Position numbers and translations under genes: made by a program
The notes under the pieces: generated by a model
The model's input: only the letters and a program-made list of their open reading frames with translations
Databases searched by the model: none
What the model was told of the DNA's origin: nothing
From: Blastococcus sp. TBT05-19
Lineage (GTDB): Bacteria; Actinomycetota; Actinomycetes; Mycobacteriales; Geodermatophilaceae
DNA length: 64,000 bases
Reading direction: 5' to 3'
Assembly (NCBI RefSeq): GCF_003319095.1
Contig: NZ_QOHI01000005.1
Span: 62,001 to 126,000, forward strand
Shown here: in pieces, positions 19,905 through 32,270 of the stretch
Numbering within the stretch: position 1 is the stretch's first letter
Layout: each line of letters starts with the position of its first letter

Positions 19905-20371
19905 TGGGCGCCGCACGAGCCGTGCCGGCCGGCCAGCTGCCGCTGCCCCCCGTCCTGCCCGCCGCGGCCGCGGCGCTGCTGGACCAGGCGCACCGCGGCC
20001 TGGCCGAGGCCGCCGCGGCTCCCGATCCGCGGGACCGCTACGCCACCGCGCACCTGTCGGCGCTCCGGGCCGCCGCGGGGGTGCTGGCCGCCCGCACCCG
20101 TCCTGAGGGCGGCCGTCGCCGGCCGCGCAGCGCCTGGGTCCTGCTCGGTCAGGTCGCCCCGGAGCTGGGGGAGTGGGCCACCTTCTTCGCCGCCGGGGCC
20201 GCCAAGCGGGCCGCCGCCGAGGCCGGGCTGTCCCACGCGGTCACCGAGCGGGAGGCCGACGACCTGGTCCGCGACGCCCGGGGCTTCCTCGCGGTGGTGG
20301 AGTCCATGTTCGGGTCCCTGTCCGAGCCACCCCGCTACCCGCGGCCCTACGTCGTCCCTCCCCGGCGGTGA
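19904..20371 (+). CDS. SAV_6107-type HEPN domain protein
   Basis: 155 residues, all-helical. The helix-rich core has RDRYATAHLSALRAAAGVLA with R-x4-H (Arg-Tyr-Ala-Thr-Ala-His), the metal-free RNase-type motif of active HEPN domains. The family is known as a partner of actinobacterial DnaE2-type polymerase genes. TGATG junction before it and GTGA junction after it, so it is translated together with both neighbours. Whether it cuts RNA, binds nucleotides or only scaffolds the polymerase is not known. Confidence 0.8.
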   Translation: MGAARAVPAGQLPLPPVLPAAAAALLDQAHRGLAEAAAAPDPRDRYATAHLSALRAAAGVLAARTRPEGGRRRPRSAWVLLGQVAPELGEWATFFAAGAAKRAAAEAGLSHAVTEREADDLVRDARGFLAVVESMFGSLSEPPRYPRPYVVPPRR

Positions 20372-23300
20372 GCGACCCCTTCGTCCACCTGCACGTCGCC
20401 TCCGGCTACTCCATGCGGTACGGGGCCAACCACCCCGCCGACCTCGTGGCCCGCGCTGCCGAGCACGGCATGCCGGCCCTGGCCCTCACCGACCGGGACG
20501 GGCTCTACGGCTCGGTGAAGTTCGCGCTGGCGTGCCGGTCGGCCGGGATCCGGCCGATCTTCGGGGTCGACCTCGCGGTGGCGCCCATGCTCGACACCAC
20601 CCTCCCGCCGTCGTTGGCCCGTGTCCTGGACGGGTCGGCCGACGGCGCGCGGTCGCCGCGCTCGCGGGCCGCCGGGTCGCGATCCGGTGCGCCGGGAGCC
20701 CGCCGGTCTCCCGCGCGGGGCGGGGCGAGCGTCGACCCGCGGCTGCCCCGGGTGACCTTCCTGGCCCGGAACGGCGCCGGCTGGCGGTCGCTGTGCCGGC
20801 TCACCAGCGCCACCCACCTGCGCGGCACCCGCGGCGAGCCGGTGAGCTCGCTGGCCATCGCCGCCGAGCACGCCGAGGGCCTGACCCCGCTGCTGGGGCC
20901 GGGGTCGCCGGTGGGCCGGGCACTGCTGGCCGGCCGGGCCGACGAGGCCCTCGCCGTGCTCGACGCGTGGCGGGCGGTCTTCGGCCCGGGGCTGGCCCTG
21001 GAGGTGGTGCACCACCGCGGCCGGGGCGACCGGCAGCGCGCGCAGGCGGTGCTCCGGTTCGCCGCCGAGCACCAGGTGCCCGTCGTCCTCAGCAACGCCG
21101 TCCGGTACGTCGACGCCCTGGACGCGCCGACCGCCGACGTCCTGGACGCGGCCCGCCGGTTGGTCCCGCTCGGGCAGCGGAACGTCGACCGCACGACGGC
21201 CGAGGGGTACCTGAAGTCGGGCAAGGAGATGGCCGAGGTCGCCGAGGACCTGATGGGTCCCGACCGGGACGCAGCACTCCGGCTGCTCGAGCGCACCGCG
21301 CGGCTGGCCGAGCAGTGCGCCGTCGACGTCGTCGCCGACCTGGGGGTGGGCAGCGTCCGCTATCCCGAGCTCGACGTCGTCACCACGCCGTCCGAGCGGG
21401 GGATGACCTCCGCGCAGGTGCTGCGGGGGCGGTGCGAGGCGGGGATGGGCCGGCGCGGCCTGGCGCCCACGGTGCGGGTGCGGCAGCGGCTGGACGACGA
21501 GCTCGCCGTCATCGAGCAGCTCGGCTACCCGTCCTACTTCCTCACCGTGGCCGACGTCGTCGACCTCATCAAGAGCTTGAGGGTCCGGGCCGCGGCGCGG
21601 GGCTCCGGCGCCGGCAGCCTGGTCACCTACCTGCTCGGCATCTCCGACGTCGACCCGCTGCGGTACGGGCTGCTGATGGAGCGGTTCCTCTCGCCGCTGC
21701 GCCACCAGCTCCCCGACATCGACATCGACGTGGAATCCGCGCGCCGGATGGAGGTCTACGACGCGGTCATCGACCGGTTCGGCGCCGACCGGGTCAGCTG
21801 CATCTCGATGATGGACACCTACCGGGTGCGGCACGCGATCCGCGACGTCGGCGCGGCGATGGGGCTGCCCCCGGCGGAGGTCGACGCCGTCGCCAAGGCG
21901 TTCCCGCACATCCGGGCCAACCAGGTGCACGCCGCGCTGCGGGACCTCCCGGAGCTGCGGGCCAGCCGCTACGGGTCCAAGCGCGCCGGCGGTACCGGCG
22001 ACCTGGACCTGCTGTTCGACCTGGTGTCCCGGCTCGACGGGCTGCCCCGGCACATCGCGCTGCACCCGTGCGGCGTGCTGCTGTCCGATGCCACGCTGCT
22101 GGACCGCACACCGGTGGAGAGCAGCTACCTCGGCTACCCGATGAGCCAGTTCGACAAGGACGACGTCGAGGAGCTCGGGCTGCTCAAGCTCGACCTGCTG
22201 GGCATCCGGATGCAGTCGGCGATCGCGCACGCGCTCGACGAGGTGGCCCGGGTCGACGGCGAGACGGTGGACATCGACGCGGTCCCGCGCGACGACCCGA
22301 CGACGTTCGAGCTGATCCGCTCGACCCGCACGCTCGGGATGTTCCAGATCGAGTCGCCGGGGCAGCGCGAGCTGGTCGGCAAGTTCGGCCCGCGATCGTT
22401 CGAGGACATCATCATCGACATCTCGCTGTTCCGGCCCGGGCCGGTGAAGAGCGACATGGTGACCCCGTTCCTCATGGCCCGGAACGGCTGGCGGGACGCC
22501 GAGTACCCGCACCCCGATCTCGAGTTCGCGCTCGCCGAGACCGCCGGTGTGGTGGTCTTCCACGAGCAGGTGCTCCAGGTGGTGTCGCGGATGACCGGCT
22601 GCACGCTGGCCGAGGCCGACGAGGTGCGCCGGGCGCTGGGGGAGAAGGACGCCCACCCCGAGGTGCGGACCTGGTTCCTGCCCCGTGCCCTGGACGCCGG
22701 GTACCCGGTGGAGGTCGCCGAGCAGGTCTGGCAGGTGCTGGTGGCCTTCGGGTCGTTCGGCTTCTGCAAGGCGCACGCGGCGGCGTTCGCGCTGCCCACC
22801 TACCAGTCGGCGTGGCTGAAGACCCACCACCCGGCGGCGTTCCTGGCCGGGGTGCTCACCCACGACCCGGGCATGTACCCGAAGCGGCTGATCCTCGACG
22901 ACGCCCGCAACTTCGGCATCCGGGTGCTCGGGCTGGACGTGAACGCCTCCGGTGCCACCTACCGCGTCGAACGGCTCGACCCGGACCCTGAGGGGGAGGG
23001 TGAGGGTTGGCGTCGTCCGGAGTGGATGCCGGCGACGATGCGCGAGCCCTCGGGGTACGGGATCCGGCTGTCGCTGGCCGACGTGAAGGGCATCTCCGAC
23101 GACGAGGTGGCCAGGGTCGTCAACGGGCAGCCGTACCGGTCGCTGACCGACTTCTGGTCGCGGGCGTCGGTGTCCCGGCCGGTGGTGGAGCGGCTGGTGC
23201 TGGCCGGCGGGTTCGACTCGCTCTACGGCTTCGGGATGCGCGACCGCGAGGCCGGCCGGCCGACGCGGCGGCGCCGTCAGGTGACCCGCCGCGACCTGCT

Positions 23301-24183
23301 GCTGCAGATCAGCGAGCTGGACCGGTGGAGCCGCAGCGGGGCACGGGCCACCTCCGACGGGCAGCTGAGCCTGGACCTCATGGGGATGGAGGACGCCGCT
23401 CCGGAGATCCCCGGCCTGGAGCTCCCCGGCCTGGAACTCCCCGCCGCGGCGAGCGCCGCCGTCGGGCCGAGCTGGGCGGAGGGCAGCGGGCTGCCCGAGT
23501 TCACCGACGCCGAGCTGGTGCGCGCCGAGCTGGAGGTGCTCGGCCTGGACGCCAGCCGGCACGTCATCGATTTCTACAAGCCGTTCCTCGCCGCGCTGGG
23601 CGCGGTGCCGGCCGGTGAGCTGCTCGGGTGCCGCAGCGGCTCGGAGGTGCTGGTGGCCGGGGTCAAGGTCGCCACCCAGACACCGCCGATCCGCTCCGGG
23701 CGCCGGGTGGTGTTCGTGACCCTGGACGACAGCAGCGGCTGCACCGACTCGACGTTCTTCGAGGACGCGCAGGGCCCCTACGCGGCGACGGTCTTCCACT
23801 CGTGGCTGCTCGTCATCCGCGGGGTGCTGCGGCGCACGGGCCCGCGCGGGATGTCGCTGCGGGCGACGGGGGCGTGGGAGCTGCCGGCGCTGCACGAGGC
23901 GTGGGAGACCGGTGGGCTGGAGCAGGTGGCCGATCAGATGGCGGCTGGGCGGGTGGGGGACGGCGGAGCGATCACCGAGGAGTCGATCGCCGGGGCGGCC
24001 GCGTCGCGGGGTCCCCGGCCGGTGGTGGTGCGCCCGGTGCTGGTGCACCCGACCGGCTTCCGGATGTCGCCGTACGCCGACATCAAACCGGCCGGCGACG
24101 ACGCGGCGACCGCCGCCCGCCGGGCGGCCGCCGGTCCGCCCCGGAAGCTGTGGCACTCCAGCCCGGGCAGCTCCGGCCACTGA
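20368..24183 (+). CDS. dnaE2: DnaE2-type error-prone DNA polymerase III alpha subunit
   Basis: 1271 residues from GTG 20368. N-terminal PHP domain (HLHVASGYSMRYGANHPADL) in which the usual Asp-Gly after the Ser-Tyr-Ser motif is Tyr-Gly, as in the Streptomyces DnaE paralogue type. The palm has catalytic acids in LPDIDIDVES at about 449-458 and the later FRPGPVKSDMV. The helix-hairpin-helix follows, then an OB-fold near the C-terminus (SEVLVAGVKVATQTP, FVTLDDSSGCTDSTFFE, about 1090-1135). Replicative DnaE is expected elsewhere; this copy is under a LexA box and grouped with HEPN and DUF6504 genes, so it likely does damage-induced translesion synthesis. A duplicated IPGLELPGLELP stretch lies near residue 1014. 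Confidence 0.93.
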   Translation: MSDPFVHLHVASGYSMRYGANHPADLVARAAEHGMPALALTDRDGLYGSVKFALACRSAGIRPIFGVDLAVAPMLDTTLPPSLARVLDGSADGARSPRSRAAGSRSGAPGARRSPARGGASVDPRLPRVTFLARNGAGWRSLCRLTSATHLRGTRGEPVSSLAIAAEHAEGLTPLLGPGSPVGRALLAGRADEALAVLDAWRAVFGPGLALEVVHHRGRGDRQRAQAVLRFAAEHQVPVVLSNAVRYVDALDAPTADVLDAARRLVPLGQRNVDRTTAEGYLKSGKEMAEVAEDLMGPDRDAALRLLERTARLAEQCAVDVVADLGVGSVRYPELDVVTTPSERGMTSAQVLRGRCEAGMGRRGLAPTVRVRQRLDDELAVIEQLGYPSYFLTVADVVDLIKSLRVRAAARGSGAGSLVTYLLGISDVDPLRYGLLMERFLSPLRHQLPDIDIDVESARRMEVYDAVIDRFGADRVSCISMMDTYRVRHAIRDVGAAMGLPPAEVDAVAKAFPHIRANQVHAALRDLPELRASRYGSKRAGGTGDLDLLFDLVSRLDGLPRHIALHPCGVLLSDATLLDRTPVESSYLGYPMSQFDKDDVEELGLLKLDLLGIRMQSAIAHALDEVARVDGETVDIDAVPRDDPTTFELIRSTRTLGMFQIESPGQRELVGKFGPRSFEDIIIDISLFRPGPVKSDMVTPFLMARNGWRDAEYPHPDLEFALAETAGVVVFHEQVLQVVSRMTGCTLAEADEVRRALGEKDAHPEVRTWFLPRALDAGYPVEVAEQVWQVLVAFGSFGFCKAHAAAFALPTYQSAWLKTHHPAAFLAGVLTHDPGMYPKRLILDDARNFGIRVLGLDVNASGATYRVERLDPDPEGEGEGWRRPEWMPATMREPSGYGIRLSLADVKGISDDEVARVVNGQPYRSLTDFWSRASVSRPVVERLVLAGGFDSLYGFGMRDREAGRPTRRRRQVTRRDLLLQISELDRWSRSGARATSDGQLSLDLMGMEDAAPEIPGLELPGLELPAAASAAVGPSWAEGSGLPEFTDAELVRAELEVLGLDASRHVIDFYKPFLAALGAVPAGELLGCRSGSEVLVAGVKVATQTPPIRSGRRVVFVTLDDSSGCTDSTFFEDAQGPYAATVFHSWLLVIRGVLRRTGPRGMSLRATGAWELPALHEAWETGGLEQVADQMAAGRVGDGGAITEESIAGAAASRGPRPVVVRPVLVHPTGFRMSPYADIKPAGDDAATAARRAAAGPPRKLWHSSPGSSGH

Positions 24184-27221: not shown

Positions 27222-28387
27222 CCCTCCCGGCCGATCTGCAGCGGCCGGCCTACGGCGCCGCCAGCCTCGCCGACGTCCTCCCCGGTGCGGCCGCGGCGCT
27301 CGGGGCGCCGGTGCTGCGCGGCGACCTGCCCCCGGACCCGCTGGGCCTGACCGACGCGCTGCACGGCGCCCGCCGCGTCGCCGTCCTGCTCGTCGACGGG
27401 CTCGGCGCCGACCTGATCCGCGCGCACGCCGACCTGGCGCCCACCCTGGCCGCGCTGAGCACCCCGGCCGGTGACCTGTCCGCGCCGTGCCCCAGCACCA
27501 CCCCGGTCAGCCTCACCACCCTGACCACCGGCCTGCCGCCGGGTGGGCACGGCGTCCTCGGCTTCGTCACCGAGGTACCGGGGGAGGGGCGCACCCTCAA
27601 CCACACCCAGTGGGCCGACGACCCCGACCCCGCCGACTGGATGGCCGCGCCCACCGTCTTCCAGCGCGCCGCGGCGGACGGGATCGCCGTCACCGCCGTC
27701 GGACCGTGGGCCTACGCCGGCTCGGGGCTCACCGAGGCCGCCTACCGCGGCGGGAACTACACCGGCAGCGTCGGCCCCGGCGACCTCACCGCCCTGATGC
27801 GCACCGCGCTCGACGCCGGCCCGCGCGCGCTGGTCTACGGCTACCTCGCCGAGCTCGACCTCACCGGCCACGTCCGCGGCGTCGACTCCCCGAGCTGGCG
27901 GTCGCAGCTGCAGCAGGTCGACGCGCTGGTCGCCCAGCTCGTCGACGGCCTGCCCGACGACGCCGCCCTCCTCGTCACCGCCGACCACGGCATGCTCGAC
28001 GTCCCGGCGCACACCCGGTTCGACCTCGACGAGGAACCCGACCTCGCCGACGGCGTCCGGCTGCTCACCGGCGAGCCGCGCGCCCGCTACGTGCACGCCG
28101 AGCCGGGGGCCGAGGCCGACGTGCTGGACCGCTGGCGCGGGGTCCTCGGCGACCGCGCCTGGGTCGTCGGGCGCGACGAGGCGGTCGCCAGCGGGATCTT
28201 CGGCCCGGTCGACGACGCCCTCGTCACCCGCCTCGGCGACGTCGTGGCGCTCGCGCGGGGGGCCTGGGCGCTGGTGACCCCGCGCCTCGAGCCCGGGCCC
28301 AGCCGGCTCGCGGCCTACCACGGGTCCCTCACCGCCACCGAGCTCGCGATCCCGCTGCTGGTGGCCCGGGGGCGCGGCCTGGCCTAG
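27218..28387 (+). CDS. Alkaline phosphatase superfamily phosphodiesterase / nucleotide pyrophosphatase
   Basis: 389 residues. Type I phosphodiesterase fold: VAVLLVDGLGADL (first metal Asp), CPSTTPVSLTTLTTG with the Thr nucleophile, YGYLAELDLTGHVRGVDS (Asp and His metal ligands), LLVTADHGMLDVP (Asp-His), and YHGSLTATELAIPLLV near the C-terminus (His). It likely cleaves a phosphodiester or pyrophosphate bond, substrate unknown. No signal peptide is seen, so it is probably cytosolic. Convergent with the next gene, sharing the CTAG at their stops. Confidence 0.86.
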   Translation: MTLPADLQRPAYGAASLADVLPGAAAALGAPVLRGDLPPDPLGLTDALHGARRVAVLLVDGLGADLIRAHADLAPTLAALSTPAGDLSAPCPSTTPVSLTTLTTGLPPGGHGVLGFVTEVPGEGRTLNHTQWADDPDPADWMAAPTVFQRAAADGIAVTAVGPWAYAGSGLTEAAYRGGNYTGSVGPGDLTALMRTALDAGPRALVYGYLAELDLTGHVRGVDSPSWRSQLQQVDALVAQLVDGLPDDAALLVTADHGMLDVPAHTRFDLDEEPDLADGVRLLTGEPRARYVHAEPGAEADVLDRWRGVLGDRAWVVGRDEAVASGIFGPVDDALVTRLGDVVALARGAWALVTPRLEPGPSRLAAYHGSLTATELAIPLLVARGRGLA

Positions 28388-29358
28388 GCGCCGGCCCGCG
28401 GCCGGGTGGTCAGCGAGAGGTGGTGCCAGGTGCGCACCCGGCCCGGCCGGGCGGCCTGGCAGGTCAGGTGCACGGTCTCGGGCGAGGGCCGGCTCTCCAC
28501 GACCACGACGACGTCCCCCTCGGGCCCGGCGAGCGCCACCTCCCAGCGCTCCGCGCCGTCGCCGGGGGAGTCCAGGGCGGTCACCGTCAGCGGCAGCAGG
28601 TCGTCGACGCCGAGCAGCCCGAGCTCCTCGCGCGCGTAGTGCTGGGCCGCCTGCGCCGGCGCGGCCAGCCCGGCGCGTCCCCGCAGCCAGGGCAGTGCCA
28701 CCCGGGCGCGGTCGTGCGCGGCCACCACCAGCGCGCCGTCGCCGGGCACCTGGCCGTAGTAGAAGCCGTGCGGCAGCACGAGCAGGTTCGCCGCGAACCG
28801 GTCACCGCCGAGGTGGCTGCACTCCCACACCTCGTCGGCGCCGGTCGTCGGCAGGGCGCGGGCCAGCGGCCGCCCGCGCAGCGCGCAGCACGCGTCGTGC
28901 CCGCCGTGGGTGCACACCAGGTAGGTGCGGCCGGCGGCCGGCGTGCCCACCGAGCCGTCCCAGGGGGCGGTCAGCAGGTCGGCGTCGGACTCCCGCACCG
29001 ACCACCACAGCCCCTCCCGGCCGGGCCGGCTGTCGGCGTAGGCCCACCGCCGGCCGGAGTCGGCCAGCCGGTCACCGGGACGGCGCACCAGCAGCACCCG
29101 CACGCCCTCGCGCGCGGCCCGGTCGGCCAGCAGCGGCGCCACGCGGGCGTCGAACCGGGACTGCGGCAGCGCCTGCCGTCCCCACGGACCGGGCTGCTCG
29201 ATCAGCAACCAGCGGTCCAGCGGGGCGGCGGTGGCGATGCCGGAGTCGGCTCGGGCGAGCGCCCGCACCGAGCAGCGGTCGGCGTCGAGGCGGCCCAGCG
29301 GCCGGGCGGGGACGTCGGTCCGGCAGAAGTCCTCGCCGCCGGGCGGTCGGGCGGTCAC
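28384..29358 (-). CDS. Sucrase/ferredoxin-like family protein (thioredoxin-like [2Fe-2S])
   Basis: 324 residues. It belongs to the sucrase/ferredoxin-like family: RWLLIEQPGPWGR, YLVCTHGGHDACCALRGRPL (Cys-rich cluster motif) and VWECSHLGGDRFAANLLVLP. These proteins hold a thioredoxin-like ferredoxin fold; the Cys and His residues can bind an iron-sulfur cluster. GTG 29358 overlaps the stop of the JmjC gene (GTGA), so it is the third gene of the repeat peptide-hydroxylase operon. An electron-supply role to the iron-dependent hydroxylase is plausible but not shown. Confidence 0.82.
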   Translation of the reverse strand: MTARPPGGEDFCRTDVPARPLGRLDADRCSVRALARADSGIATAAPLDRWLLIEQPGPWGRQALPQSRFDARVAPLLADRAAREGVRVLLVRRPGDRLADSGRRWAYADSRPGREGLWWSVRESDADLLTAPWDGSVGTPAAGRTYLVCTHGGHDACCALRGRPLARALPTTGADEVWECSHLGGDRFAANLLVLPHGFYYGQVPGDGALVVAAHDRARVALPWLRGRAGLAAPAQAAQHYAREELGLLGVDDLLPLTVTALDSPGDGAERWEVALAGPEGDVVVVVESRPSPETVHLTCQAARPGRVRTWHHLSLTTRPRAGA

Positions 29359-30578
29359 GGCAGGGGCGGCTGGCCCGCGGCCTCCGCGCCGGGGACGACG
29401 GCGACCGACTCCGTCACCAGCCGGCGGGCCAGCGCGAGCCGCTCGGCCGGCTCCAGCCCGGGCAGGTCCCCGACCTTCAGCTCGCCGACGGCGATCAGCT
29501 CGGCCAGCGCGGGCCGTTCCGGAGCACCGAAGGAGTGGGTCCGCCGCCCGCCGATGAGCAGCACCCCGCCGTCCGCGCCGTCGCGCAGGGTGCAGCGCAG
29601 CCGGGTGCGCAGGCGCAGCACCGTGTCGGGGGTGAGGGCCGCGGCCGCGGTGGCCTGGGCCAGCGGCGCCACCGGCTCGGGGCGCACCTGCGCCCACGTC
29701 CGGGCGCGCAGGCGGTCGGCCACCTCGGCGGGGTCGACCCGGCCCAGCCACTCCCTCAGGGAGGAGACGACGGCGGCGACGTCGTCGGCGACCACGTCCG
29801 GGTCGGCCAGGTCGACGCCCAGGGGGAGCGAGCCGCGCAGCGAGCGGTCCTCCGCGGCGAGGGTGCGCACGAGGTCCAGCACCTGCTCCGCGGCCGCCCA
29901 GCGGGTGACGGAGTGGATGCCGACGGTCAGGTGGGCGCTGATCTCACCCAGCGCACGCGCCGAGTGCAGGTAGCCGCGGGGCAGGTAGAGCGCGTCGCCC
30001 GGGCGCAGCACGGCGTCGATGACCGGCTCCCGCTCCGCGGCGGCGGCCACCTCGTCGGCCCGGTCGGTCCACACCTGGGTGCGCAGCGGGTCGGGCAGCA
30101 CCGGCGCGTGGATGGTCCAGTGCTTCTCGCCGGCCACCTGCAGCACGAAGACGTCGTGGACGTCGTAGTGCGGGCTGAACCCCCGGGAGGACGGCGGCGT
30201 GATGTAGGCGTTGACCTGCGTGGGGTGGCCGAGGTCGGCGGCGAGCGCGTCGGCGAACTCGATCAGCGGCGGCCAGAGCCGGTGCAGGCCCTGCAGGACC
30301 ACGGTGCTGCCGTCGGCGAACAGCCGCAGCACCGAGTCCGAGCTGACCTGGTCGGCGATCTCGGCGCCGGCGCCACCGGAGGTCGTGAAGCGCTTGGGGT
30401 CGACGACGGCGCCGTCCTTGGCGATCCGCAGGAACGGCGTGCGCAGCCCGCGGCGGGACAGCAGCTCGTCCACCGCGGGCAGGTCGAGCAGGTCGGTGAA
30501 GGAGTTGCCGGTGTCCTCGGCACGGGTGAGCAGCGGCCGGCGGGCCCAGTACTCGGCGGCGAAGACCTCCGGCGCCAT
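29355..30578 (-). CDS. JmjC/cupin-4 domain protein hydroxylase (2-oxoglutarate/Fe(II) dioxygenase)
   Basis: 407 residues from ATG 30578. The cupin core has the iron-binding triad: H137 and D139 in FSPHYDVHDVFVLQVAGEKHW, and H205 in LPRGYLHSA. The layout matches cupin-4/JmjC oxygenases, which hydroxylate amino-acid side chains of proteins (ribosomal oxygenases in E. coli, FIH in animals). The open frame continues upstream with family-like residues (LLRPALRRCTD before the Met). A CTG at 30650-30648 overlaps the stop of the preceding peptide gene as CTGA, so the true start may be CTG 30650, adding 24 residues. It is coupled to the ferredoxin-like gene downstream. Confidence 0.86.
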   Translation of the reverse strand: MAPEVFAAEYWARRPLLTRAEDTGNSFTDLLDLPAVDELLSRRGLRTPFLRIAKDGAVVDPKRFTTSGGAGAEIADQVSSDSVLRLFADGSTVVLQGLHRLWPPLIEFADALAADLGHPTQVNAYITPPSSRGFSPHYDVHDVFVLQVAGEKHWTIHAPVLPDPLRTQVWTDRADEVAAAAEREPVIDAVLRPGDALYLPRGYLHSARALGEISAHLTVGIHSVTRWAAAEQVLDLVRTLAAEDRSLRGSLPLGVDLADPDVVADDVAAVVSSLREWLGRVDPAEVADRLRARTWAQVRPEPVAPLAQATAAAALTPDTVLRLRTRLRCTLRDGADGGVLLIGGRRTHSFGAPERPALAELIAVGELKVGDLPGLEPAERLALARRLVTESVAVVPGAEAAGQPPLP

Positions 30579-30646
30579 GTCGGTGCACCGCCGCAGGGCG
30601 GGGCGGAGCAGCTGCTCCGCCCCGCCCCGCGAGGTCGGGTCCTCGG

Positions 30647-30889
30647 TCAGGCCGAACCGTCCGCGCCGCCGTCGGCACCGCCGTCGGCGCCGCCGTCCGC
30701 ACCCGAGTCCGCGCCGCCGTCGGCACCACCGTCGGCGCCGCCGTCCGCACCGCCGTCGTGCCCGCCGGACGTGCCGGCCGCACCGTGGTCGGCCGGGCCG
30801 GCGCTGCCGTCGGCCGGGCCGTGGGCGCCGCCGTCAGCACCGCCGTCGGCGCCGCCGTCACCGGTCGTCATGTCGTCGTCCAGAGCCAT
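30647..30889 (-). CDS. Short (Gly-Gly-Ala-Asp)n repeat protein, unknown function
   Basis: 80 residues, acidic start MALDDDMTTGDGG, then nine exact GGAD tetrapeptides plus variants (SGAD, GGAH, GPAD), interrupted by one Gly/Ala/His section (GPADHGAAGTSGGHDGG). No Cys, no aromatic residue, no Lys or Arg, no membrane segment. GGAGG lies 4 nt before the ATG at 30889, so translation is likely real. Its TGA overlaps a CTG that may start the JmjC gene. The DNA repeat unit is 12 bp. I do not recognise a characterised family. Position suggests a substrate or partner of the hydroxylase; Asp residues in a fixed repeat are a plausible hydroxylation target. The divergent neighbour across the LexA box is dinB. 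Confidence 0.7.
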   Translation of the reverse strand: MALDDDMTTGDGGADGGADGGAHGPADGSAGPADHGAAGTSGGHDGGADGGADGGADGGADSGADGGADGGADGGADGSA

Positions 30890-30913
30890 GGCTCCTCCGA
30901 TCAGGGTCGATCC

Positions 30914-30933
30914 GGGCCGCCGGACGGCGGCCC
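30914..30933. other. Hairpin in the leader of the repeat-peptide operon
   Basis: GGGCCGCC and GGCGGCCC form a perfect 8-bp stem with a 4-nt loop. It lies between the repeat-peptide start (30889) and the divergent LexA box. It could be an attenuator in the 5' leader of the minus-strand operon, or an operator; nothing else in the sequence decides. Confidence 0.5.
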
Positions 30934-31038
30934 CTGGGCGCTGCTTACCTCGGAGATCGCGGAGTCACACCTGCGGCCCGACCTGCGCGGCGAGGCGCGC
31001 GGTGCGGCGCCCGGGCGGGCGCTACCCTCCATCCGGTG

Positions 31039-31054
31039 TCGAACACGTGTTCGA
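31039..31054. promoter_or_regulatory. LexA (SOS) box upstream of dinB
   Basis: TCGAAC-ACGT-GTTCGA, a perfect and fully palindromic LexA box. It lies 11 bp downstream of a TACCCT -10 box (31023-31028) and 13 bp before the dinB start, so LexA would cover the transcription start. It also lies between dinB and the divergent repeat-peptide operon and may affect both. Confidence 0.93.
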
Positions 31055-31067
31055 GCGAGGAGGAGTG

Positions 31068-32270
31068 GTGGACCGGACGACGGGGTGCACCGTCCTGCAC
31101 GTCGACATGGACGCGTTCTTCGCCAGTGTCGAGGTGCGGCGGCGGCCGGAGCTGGCCGGCACGCCGGTGATCGTCGGCGGGGCCGGCAACCGGGGCGTGG
31201 TCACCTCGGCCACCTACGAGGCCCGCCGCTACGGCGTGCACGCGGCCATGCCCACCGGCCGGGCGCTGCGGCTGTGCCCGACGGCGACCGTCCTGCCGGG
31301 GGACATGGCGCTCTACACCGAGGTGTCCCGCTCGGTCATGGCCCTGTTCCGGTCGATCACCCCGCTGGTCGAGCCGCTCTCCCTGGACGAGGCGTTCCTC
31401 GACGTCTCCGGGGCCGGGCGGCGGCTGGGGGACGCCGCGGAGATCGGCGAGTACATCCGTGCCCGGGTCTACGACGAGCAGGGCATCACCTGCTCGGTCG
31501 GGGTGGCCGGCACCAAGTTCGTGGCCAAGCTCGCCTCCACCTCCGCCAAGCCCGACGGGATGCGCGTCGTCCGCCCGGCGGAGGTCATGGGGTTCCTGCA
31601 CCCCCTGCCGGTGGGCGCCCTGTGGGGGGTGGGCCCCAGGACCGAGGAGACGCTGACCCGGCTCGGGCTGCGCACCGTCGGCGACCTGGCGCACGTCCCG
31701 GCGCGCACGCTGCAGCGGGCGCTCGGTGCCGCGGCCGGGAGTCACCTGCACGAGCTGGCGTGGGGTCGCGACCCGCGGCGGGTGGTCCCCGACGAGCCGG
31801 AGCGCTCCACCGGCGCGGAGGAGACCTTCTCCACCGACGTCGACGACCCTGCCGTGATCCACCGCGAGCTGCTGCACCTGTCCGAGCGCACGGCGGGACG
31901 GTTGCGCTCGATGGGCTGCCTGACCCGCACGGTGAGCATCAAGGTGCGGTTCGCCGACTTCGCGACGATCACCCGCAGCCGCACGCTCGGCACCCCCACC
32001 GACGTGGGCAAGGACCTGTACGACACCGCGCGCGCCCTCTTCGACGCCCTGGGGCTCGACCGGGCCCGGATCCGGCTGGTCGGGGTGCGCGCCGAACGGC
32101 TCGTCGACGCCGACGAGACCCCCCAGCAGCTGGAGCTCGGAGCCCGGGAGCACGGCCGCCGGGAGGCCGAGCTCGCCGCCGACCGCGCCGCCCGCCGGTT
32201 CGGCGCGGGCGCGGTCCGGCCGGCCACCCTGCTGCACCGATCGGGCCGTCCCGGGAGCGCCCCCCGCTGA
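31068..32270 (+). CDS. dinB: DNA polymerase IV (Y-family translesion polymerase)
   Basis: 400 residues from GTG 31068, with GAGGAGGA just upstream (the GTG at 31065 is too close). Y-family catalytic residues: VLHVDMDAFFASVEVRR (first Asp) and EPLSLDEAFLDVSG (Asp-Glu). TYEARRYGVHAAMPTGRAL and CSVGVAGTKFVAKLASTSAKPDG are the finger and palm motifs; a little-finger domain follows. PQQLELGA near 350 may bind the sliding clamp. It bypasses damaged bases with low fidelity. The LexA box predicts SOS induction together with the DnaE2 operon. Confidence 0.95.
   Translation: MDRTTGCTVLHVDMDAFFASVEVRRRPELAGTPVIVGGAGNRGVVTSATYEARRYGVHAAMPTGRALRLCPTATVLPGDMALYTEVSRSVMALFRSITPLVEPLSLDEAFLDVSGAGRRLGDAAEIGEYIRARVYDEQGITCSVGVAGTKFVAKLASTSAKPDGMRVVRPAEVMGFLHPLPVGALWGVGPRTEETLTRLGLRTVGDLAHVPARTLQRALGAAAGSHLHELAWGRDPRRVVPDEPERSTGAEETFSTDVDDPAVIHRELLHLSERTAGRLRSMGCLTRTVSIKVRFADFATITRSRTLGTPTDVGKDLYDTARALFDALGLDRARIRLVGVRAERLVDADETPQQLELGAREHGRREAELAADRAARRFGAGAVRPATLLHRSGRPGSAPR

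Follow-up and report, generated by a model that had tools for sequence, protein, structure and literature searches.

In Blastococcus sp. TBT05-19 a short peptide composed of Gly-Gly-Ala-Asp (GGAD) repeats is encoded immediately upstream of a JmjC_2 oxygenase, and this pair is conserved across the phylum. The window, which is the whole stretch of 64,000 nucleotides of contig NZ_QOHI01000005.1 that was analyzed, carries the genes on its minus strand. The precursor-like peptide gene, an open reading frame (ORF) for 80 residues (30647..30889, stop included), is followed by the oxygenase gene (29355..30650) and a Suc_Fer-like gene (28384..29358). We consider it probable that the locus is a minimal cassette like those for ribosomally synthesized and post-translationally modified peptides (RiPPs), in which an Asp-repeat precursor would be hydroxylated at Asp by a leader-docking NO66-type oxygenase, with the Suc_Fer-like protein as an optional member. 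The three genes had been recognized in the original prediction and were confirmed by the ORFs and by matches to PF08007 (JmjC_2, E 7.5e-28) and PF06999 (Suc_Fer-like, E 3.1e-16). The peptide contains 17 Asp, 30 Gly and 18 Ala and, as stated earlier, no Cys, aromatic residue, Lys or Arg.

The position of the peptide gene was compared in related genomes. The oxygenase occurs in 108 of the 112 genomes of the window's family. Comparison by eye of the peptide and oxygenase matches in this family showed that 29 of the best 30 peptide matches are located no more than about 300 bp upstream of the oxygenase gene on the same strand; the remaining one (G098) sits at a contig end. At the class level an upstream peptide was present at 29 of 29 loci (L061-L089) and at 27 of 29 further orthologues (L150-L176, L180, L181), 16 of these being of the GGAD type and 11 diverged. 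The two loci without it, L150 and L152, come from a single genus. Its oxygenase is 47-48% identical, a different acidic ORF lies upstream, and a Suc_Fer homologue is found elsewhere instead of adjoining. Among named genomes, for which the best 80 of 570 relatives were taken, the peptide was found at 75 loci, and the five misses have at most 141 bp of upstream sequence. Across these best 80 relatives the pair spans roughly two dozen named genera of actinobacteria, including Blastococcus, Geodermatophilus, Modestobacter, Klenkia, Actinoplanes, Kribbella, Micromonospora, Actinokineospora, Pseudonocardia, Amycolatopsis, Cellulomonas and Herbiconiux. In other classes of the phylum all 18 fetched loci with upstream DNA have the peptide; this sample comprised 19 loci (L274-L292, with L292 lacking upstream DNA) from 31 matching genomes, of which 12 were unfetched. 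The co-occurrence of GGAD-repeat frames with JmjC genes, proposed earlier as a check, is therefore conserved.

The linkage also holds in the reverse direction. Searching 296 genomes of the class with the repeat peptide (E≤1e-6) returned 18 places in 17 genomes, each of them at most about 320 bp upstream of an oxygenase gene. This search was insensitive, missing even the window's own peptide, and shows specificity rather than completeness. Presence of a peptide was judged by eye or with rules for GGAD-like motifs, and diverged Asp-repeat peptides were read by eye or chosen by an acidity rule, the least clear being that of L175, which was entered as "other" in the tree described below. When one uniform rule was applied to 222 unique loci, 214 scored positive, L150 and L152 falsely so, and L122 and L231 were missed though their peptides are present. 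As in RiPP systems, an encoded precursor-like peptide is linked to a candidate modifying enzyme. A plasmid-borne system was rejected, as none of the 29 plasmid records matching the oxygenase does so over 80% of its length.

The GC content is 75.7% and the peptide DNA is a tandem 12-nt repeat, properties that would also fit a microsatellite of a high-GC genome that happens to be open. To this explanation we assign practically no probability: it is refuted by the phylum-wide conserved position, the two-way linkage with one enzyme and the synonymous bias of the variation. Neighboring 12-nt units, compared across 163 unique loci, differed 698, 672 and 2786 times at codon positions 1, 2 and 3, respectively, each in 6192 comparisons. 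The corresponding codon changes were 2245 synonymous versus 1212 nonsynonymous, while a random-change model on a near-identical locus set predicted an N/S ratio of 2.56. From the position-3 bias and the synonymous excess relative to this model it follows that the peptide repeat is under protein-level selection, which answers the question of codon-level conservation raised by the original prediction. Start-codon choice was rough in the codon, uniform-rule, N-terminus and consensus/net-charge analyses, and some peptides in the codon analysis were shortened. Repeat number, for which variation had likewise been asked about, ranges from 2 to 17 GGAD copies in 86 loci of the window's family (median 10). 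Elsewhere in the window no segment with at least three GGAD units was found (six frames, 80-residue windows, step 20).

The peptide can be divided into a leader-like N-terminus, MALDDDMTT (30863..30889, minus), which represents the family motif LxDDDIxT, and an Asp-repeat core of GGAD units (30650..30859, minus), delimited by the peptide sequence and the repeat DNA. The motif L-x-D-D-D-I/M-x-T/S occurs in 148 of 208 peptides by a strict pattern; 200 shuffles gave a mean of 0.3 and a maximum of 2. The core varies by clade, with GGAD or EGPADGGANPGGHDGGADGSA in most of the class and DGTDGDATD or DADASDADA elsewhere, and the median net charge is −18 and −22.5 in two core groups. Constant across the core types is Asp flanked by small residues. 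When mapped on an enzyme tree, core type required 6 changes versus 34.4 after shuffling; the tree was built by a quick method from 147 candidate rows thinned to 78 and has long branches. A conserved leader combined with a variable core, as seen here, is characteristic of RiPPs. No Pfam or NCBIfam family matched the window peptide at E≤1, and ten relatives' peptides gave no relevant family in these databases; the sole sub-threshold NCBIfam match among the ten was of a paralogue's short peptide to RiPP_CPAC (17 bits, cut-off 60).

Comparison of the cores points to Asp as the probable modified residue. The repeat often includes His as well, in units such as GGHDGGAD and GQHDGGAD, and this His might be what the oxygenase hydroxylates, in line with the action of NO66 and MINA53 on ribosomal His, with Asp as mere context. 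The closest solved relatives of the oxygenase are indeed His hydroxylases; in 190 cases a His stands before DGGAD, and 99 of the 163 peptides contain HDGG. However, His is absent from 18 of the 163 GGAD-type peptides (one of them, L122, is cut by a contig end), and the DGTD and DADASDA cores are mostly His-free while Asp is kept, which makes modification at His improbable.

Several peptides deviate in detail. In L109 (Geodermatophilaceae) an amphipathic-looking stretch, LIDKVRDKVRDVIGG, is inserted within the repeat. Kribbella peptides (L225, L227, L238, L239) share a C-terminal NSGSW tail in place of GSA, possibly a processing or recognition signal. Locus L300 has two tandem peptide ORFs near a contig end, which suggests duplication of the precursor. 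Among weaker peptide matches, L298 and L299 were unrelated and have no repeat.

The oxygenase has the NO66 fold over its full length, and its whole-length relatives are NO66, MINA53 and YcfD. It shows the architecture of the ribosomal oxygenases (ROX), with a JmjC domain, a dimerization region and a C-terminal winged helix. The JmjC_2 domain (29907..30227, minus; residues 142-248) contains the ROX iron site H161-x-D163…H229, corresponding to H137, D139 and H205 when numbered from the ATG. All 78 of 78 aligned homologues retain these ligands, which the original prediction described as intact. The C-terminal domain (29358..29648, minus) resembles RiPP recognition elements (RREs) at moderate score and may share their fold. 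Factor inhibiting HIF (FIH) is a JmjC Asn/Asp hydroxylase of repeat proteins and in this respect resembles the activity proposed here. Of the FIH/ribosomal oxygenase type named in the original prediction, the second half is supported; given the whole-length relatives, we regard an FIH-type enzyme as unlikely. In view of the versatility of 2-oxoglutarate (2OG) oxygenases, the repeat might be desaturated, cross-linked or oxidatively decarboxylated beyond hydroxylation. The whole-length relatives are hydroxylases, though, and the window peptide offers no aromatic residue or Cys for a cross-link, so we regard such chemistry as rather unlikely.

The start of the oxygenase determines how the two genes are connected. 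The peptide stop TGA shares CTGA with an in-frame CTG at 30650, and an overlap exists only if this CTG is the start; the nearest ATG (30578) lies 68 bp past the peptide stop. CTG start codons are rare. The oxygenase likely starts at the overlapping CTG, because the reading frame is open upstream of the ATG, 83 of 86 family loci keep the overlap codon in frame with the oxygenase (82 CTG, 1 GTG), the gap changes in length mostly by multiples of 3, and AlphaFold confidence rises before the ATG (residue 25), with block means of 36, 75 and 96 for residues 1-10, 11-20 and 21-30 and a helix at 17-23. Outside the window's family just 43 of 77 loci have this codon in frame. Of the 3-4 bp overlaps described earlier, the 4-nt GTGA between the oxygenase and Suc_Fer-like genes stands, while that between peptide and oxygenase depends on the CTG start.

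The in-frame overlap in the window's family could also mean that the peptide is a regulator, a decoy or a translation-coupling leader ORF, with the oxygenase acting on a ribosomal or other protein. The substrates of the ROX family are ribosomal proteins (PMC6006756). Such a role has a rather low probability, as the peptide is long and keeps its own N-terminal motif, its core type follows the enzyme, and the RRE-like domain suits peptide docking. Stand-alone peptide copies also occur away from the oxygenase, and two of the weaker family matches (G010:C20, G025:C5) are of this kind. At L293 and L294 such a second GGAD peptide copy looks identical over the printed frame in two genomes of different genera. 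The case that the peptide is the substrate of the oxygenase is strong but indirect.

The product of the third gene was proposed earlier to be a ferredoxin-like partner. It is a frequent neighbor: 21 of 29 class loci have it beside the pair, and the best 80 of 570 relatives gave a same-strand match at 52 of the 80 named loci, some of which stop short of where the gene would lie. It does not adjoin in 8 of 29 class loci; of these eight genomes, five encode a homologue at another place, and a search at E≤1e-3 gave none in the other three. An obligatory ferredoxin partner was rejected for this reason, and we regard the Suc_Fer-like protein as a helper that is often present but lies outside the core of the cassette. 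It shares the family and the CX8C motif (C149-x8-C158) with the Aim32/Apd1 thioredoxin-like ferredoxins (PMC8482512). C149, C158 and H182 are conserved in 166 of 166 homologues. The HX3H motif of the Aim32 type is absent: its second His, at position 186, is replaced by Asp in 141 and by Cys in 25 of the 166. A PDB search with the protein returned only weak matches to gelation factor (best E 0.019).

The earlier interpretation is thus partly supported. We propose that the peptide is a precursor in which the short LxDDDIxT leader would be bound by the RRE-like C-terminal domain of an NO66-type Fe(II)/2OG oxygenase. The JmjC site would then move along the core and oxidize many side chains, the most likely reaction being β-hydroxylation of Asp beside small residues. 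The resulting poly(hydroxy-Asp) peptide would be disordered and strongly acidic, and the Suc_Fer-like protein may serve as an optional helper, e.g. by keeping iron reduced. In 2.5 kb flanks of 24 loci no other ORF cluster was common to more than 5 of 23 genus-level names, a count that excludes frames overlapping the pair and Suc_Fer and uses unannotated clusters. No dedicated protease or exporter was evident in these loci, and the product may therefore stay inside the cell. An intracellular metal-binding or protective polymer is plausible because no widely shared neighbor but Suc_Fer travels with the pair, and metal binding in particular because hydroxy-Asp is a good metal ligand.

Both JmjC proteins acting on RiPP precursors and RRE-PF08007 fusions are already known. 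BipG of biphenomycin biosynthesis is a JmjC protein that hydroxylates Orn of a RiPP precursor (PMC12707348). The cassette oxygenase is predicted to act likewise on a ribosomal precursor peptide; however, BipG belongs to a multi-enzyme antibiotic cluster, whereas the cassette has two or three genes, no other widely shared neighbors and a repeat core. PMC12710340 refers in passing to RREs fused to PF08007 JmjC domains and also to JmjC homologues of bacteria in RiPP-like settings; no Asp-repeat peptide is named in the available part of its text. With RRE-dependent RiPPs the cassette shares a leader-like N-terminus and a neighboring precursor-like peptide and, if the resemblance of the C-terminal domain holds, an RRE-like domain inside the modifying enzyme. 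The cassette differs in the pairing of an Asp-repeat peptide with a JmjC_2 enzyme; this dedicated upstream peptide distinguishes the cassette oxygenase from NO66/RIOX1, MINA53/RIOX2 and YcfD, which are ROX enzymes of PF08007. A literature search found no paper on an Asp-repeat peptide cassette, judged by titles and the starts of abstracts, which is a weak negative as subscription journals are thinly covered.

Peptides may accompany more distant enzymes too. Among 11 distant JmjC_2 paralogues, no peptide could be recognized at five and six have a different, conserved acidic peptide of 35-37 residues similarly placed, which hints at a wider rule of JmjC-linked peptides. In the f19 paralogues (L183-L186, L188, L189) this upstream peptide ends in GGDSDGTDSSSDFI or a close variant and likely represents a second, non-repetitive JmjC-linked peptide family.

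A Shine-Dalgarno-like GGAGGAG (30892..30898, minus) precedes the peptide ATG, and many family loci have a similar stretch there. A scan of 28200-31150 for a sigma-70-like promoter or a terminator found neither, which carries little weight for a 76% GC actinobacterium. Divergent from the operon lies a gene for a Y-family polymerase (PF00817; 31059-32267, plus), and at 20173-24180 (plus) a DNA polymerase III alpha-type protein is encoded, which we take to be DnaE2-like.

We tentatively raise a broader possibility, which we hold with less confidence than the cassette itself: Actinomycetota may widely make unrecognized poly(hydroxy-aspartate) peptides from a RiPP-like cassette of two genes and no exporter, for the cell's own use in metal buffering or protection. 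If the NO66-type enzyme grips its substrate via the RRE-like winged helix, the corresponding winged helix in the human enzymes NO66 and MINA53 could be an RRE by descent, giving ribosomal oxygenases and peptide-maturation enzymes one origin. If the cassette acts as proposed above, a peptide-modification system of about two dozen genera (among the best 80 of 570 relatives) and several other classes of the phylum has escaped notice. ROX-type oxygenases, known from ribosome hydroxylation, would gain a dedicated bacterial peptide substrate, the origin of the NO66/MINA53 winged helix would become testable, and poly(hydroxy-Asp) repeats would be a new genetically encoded metal-binding material.
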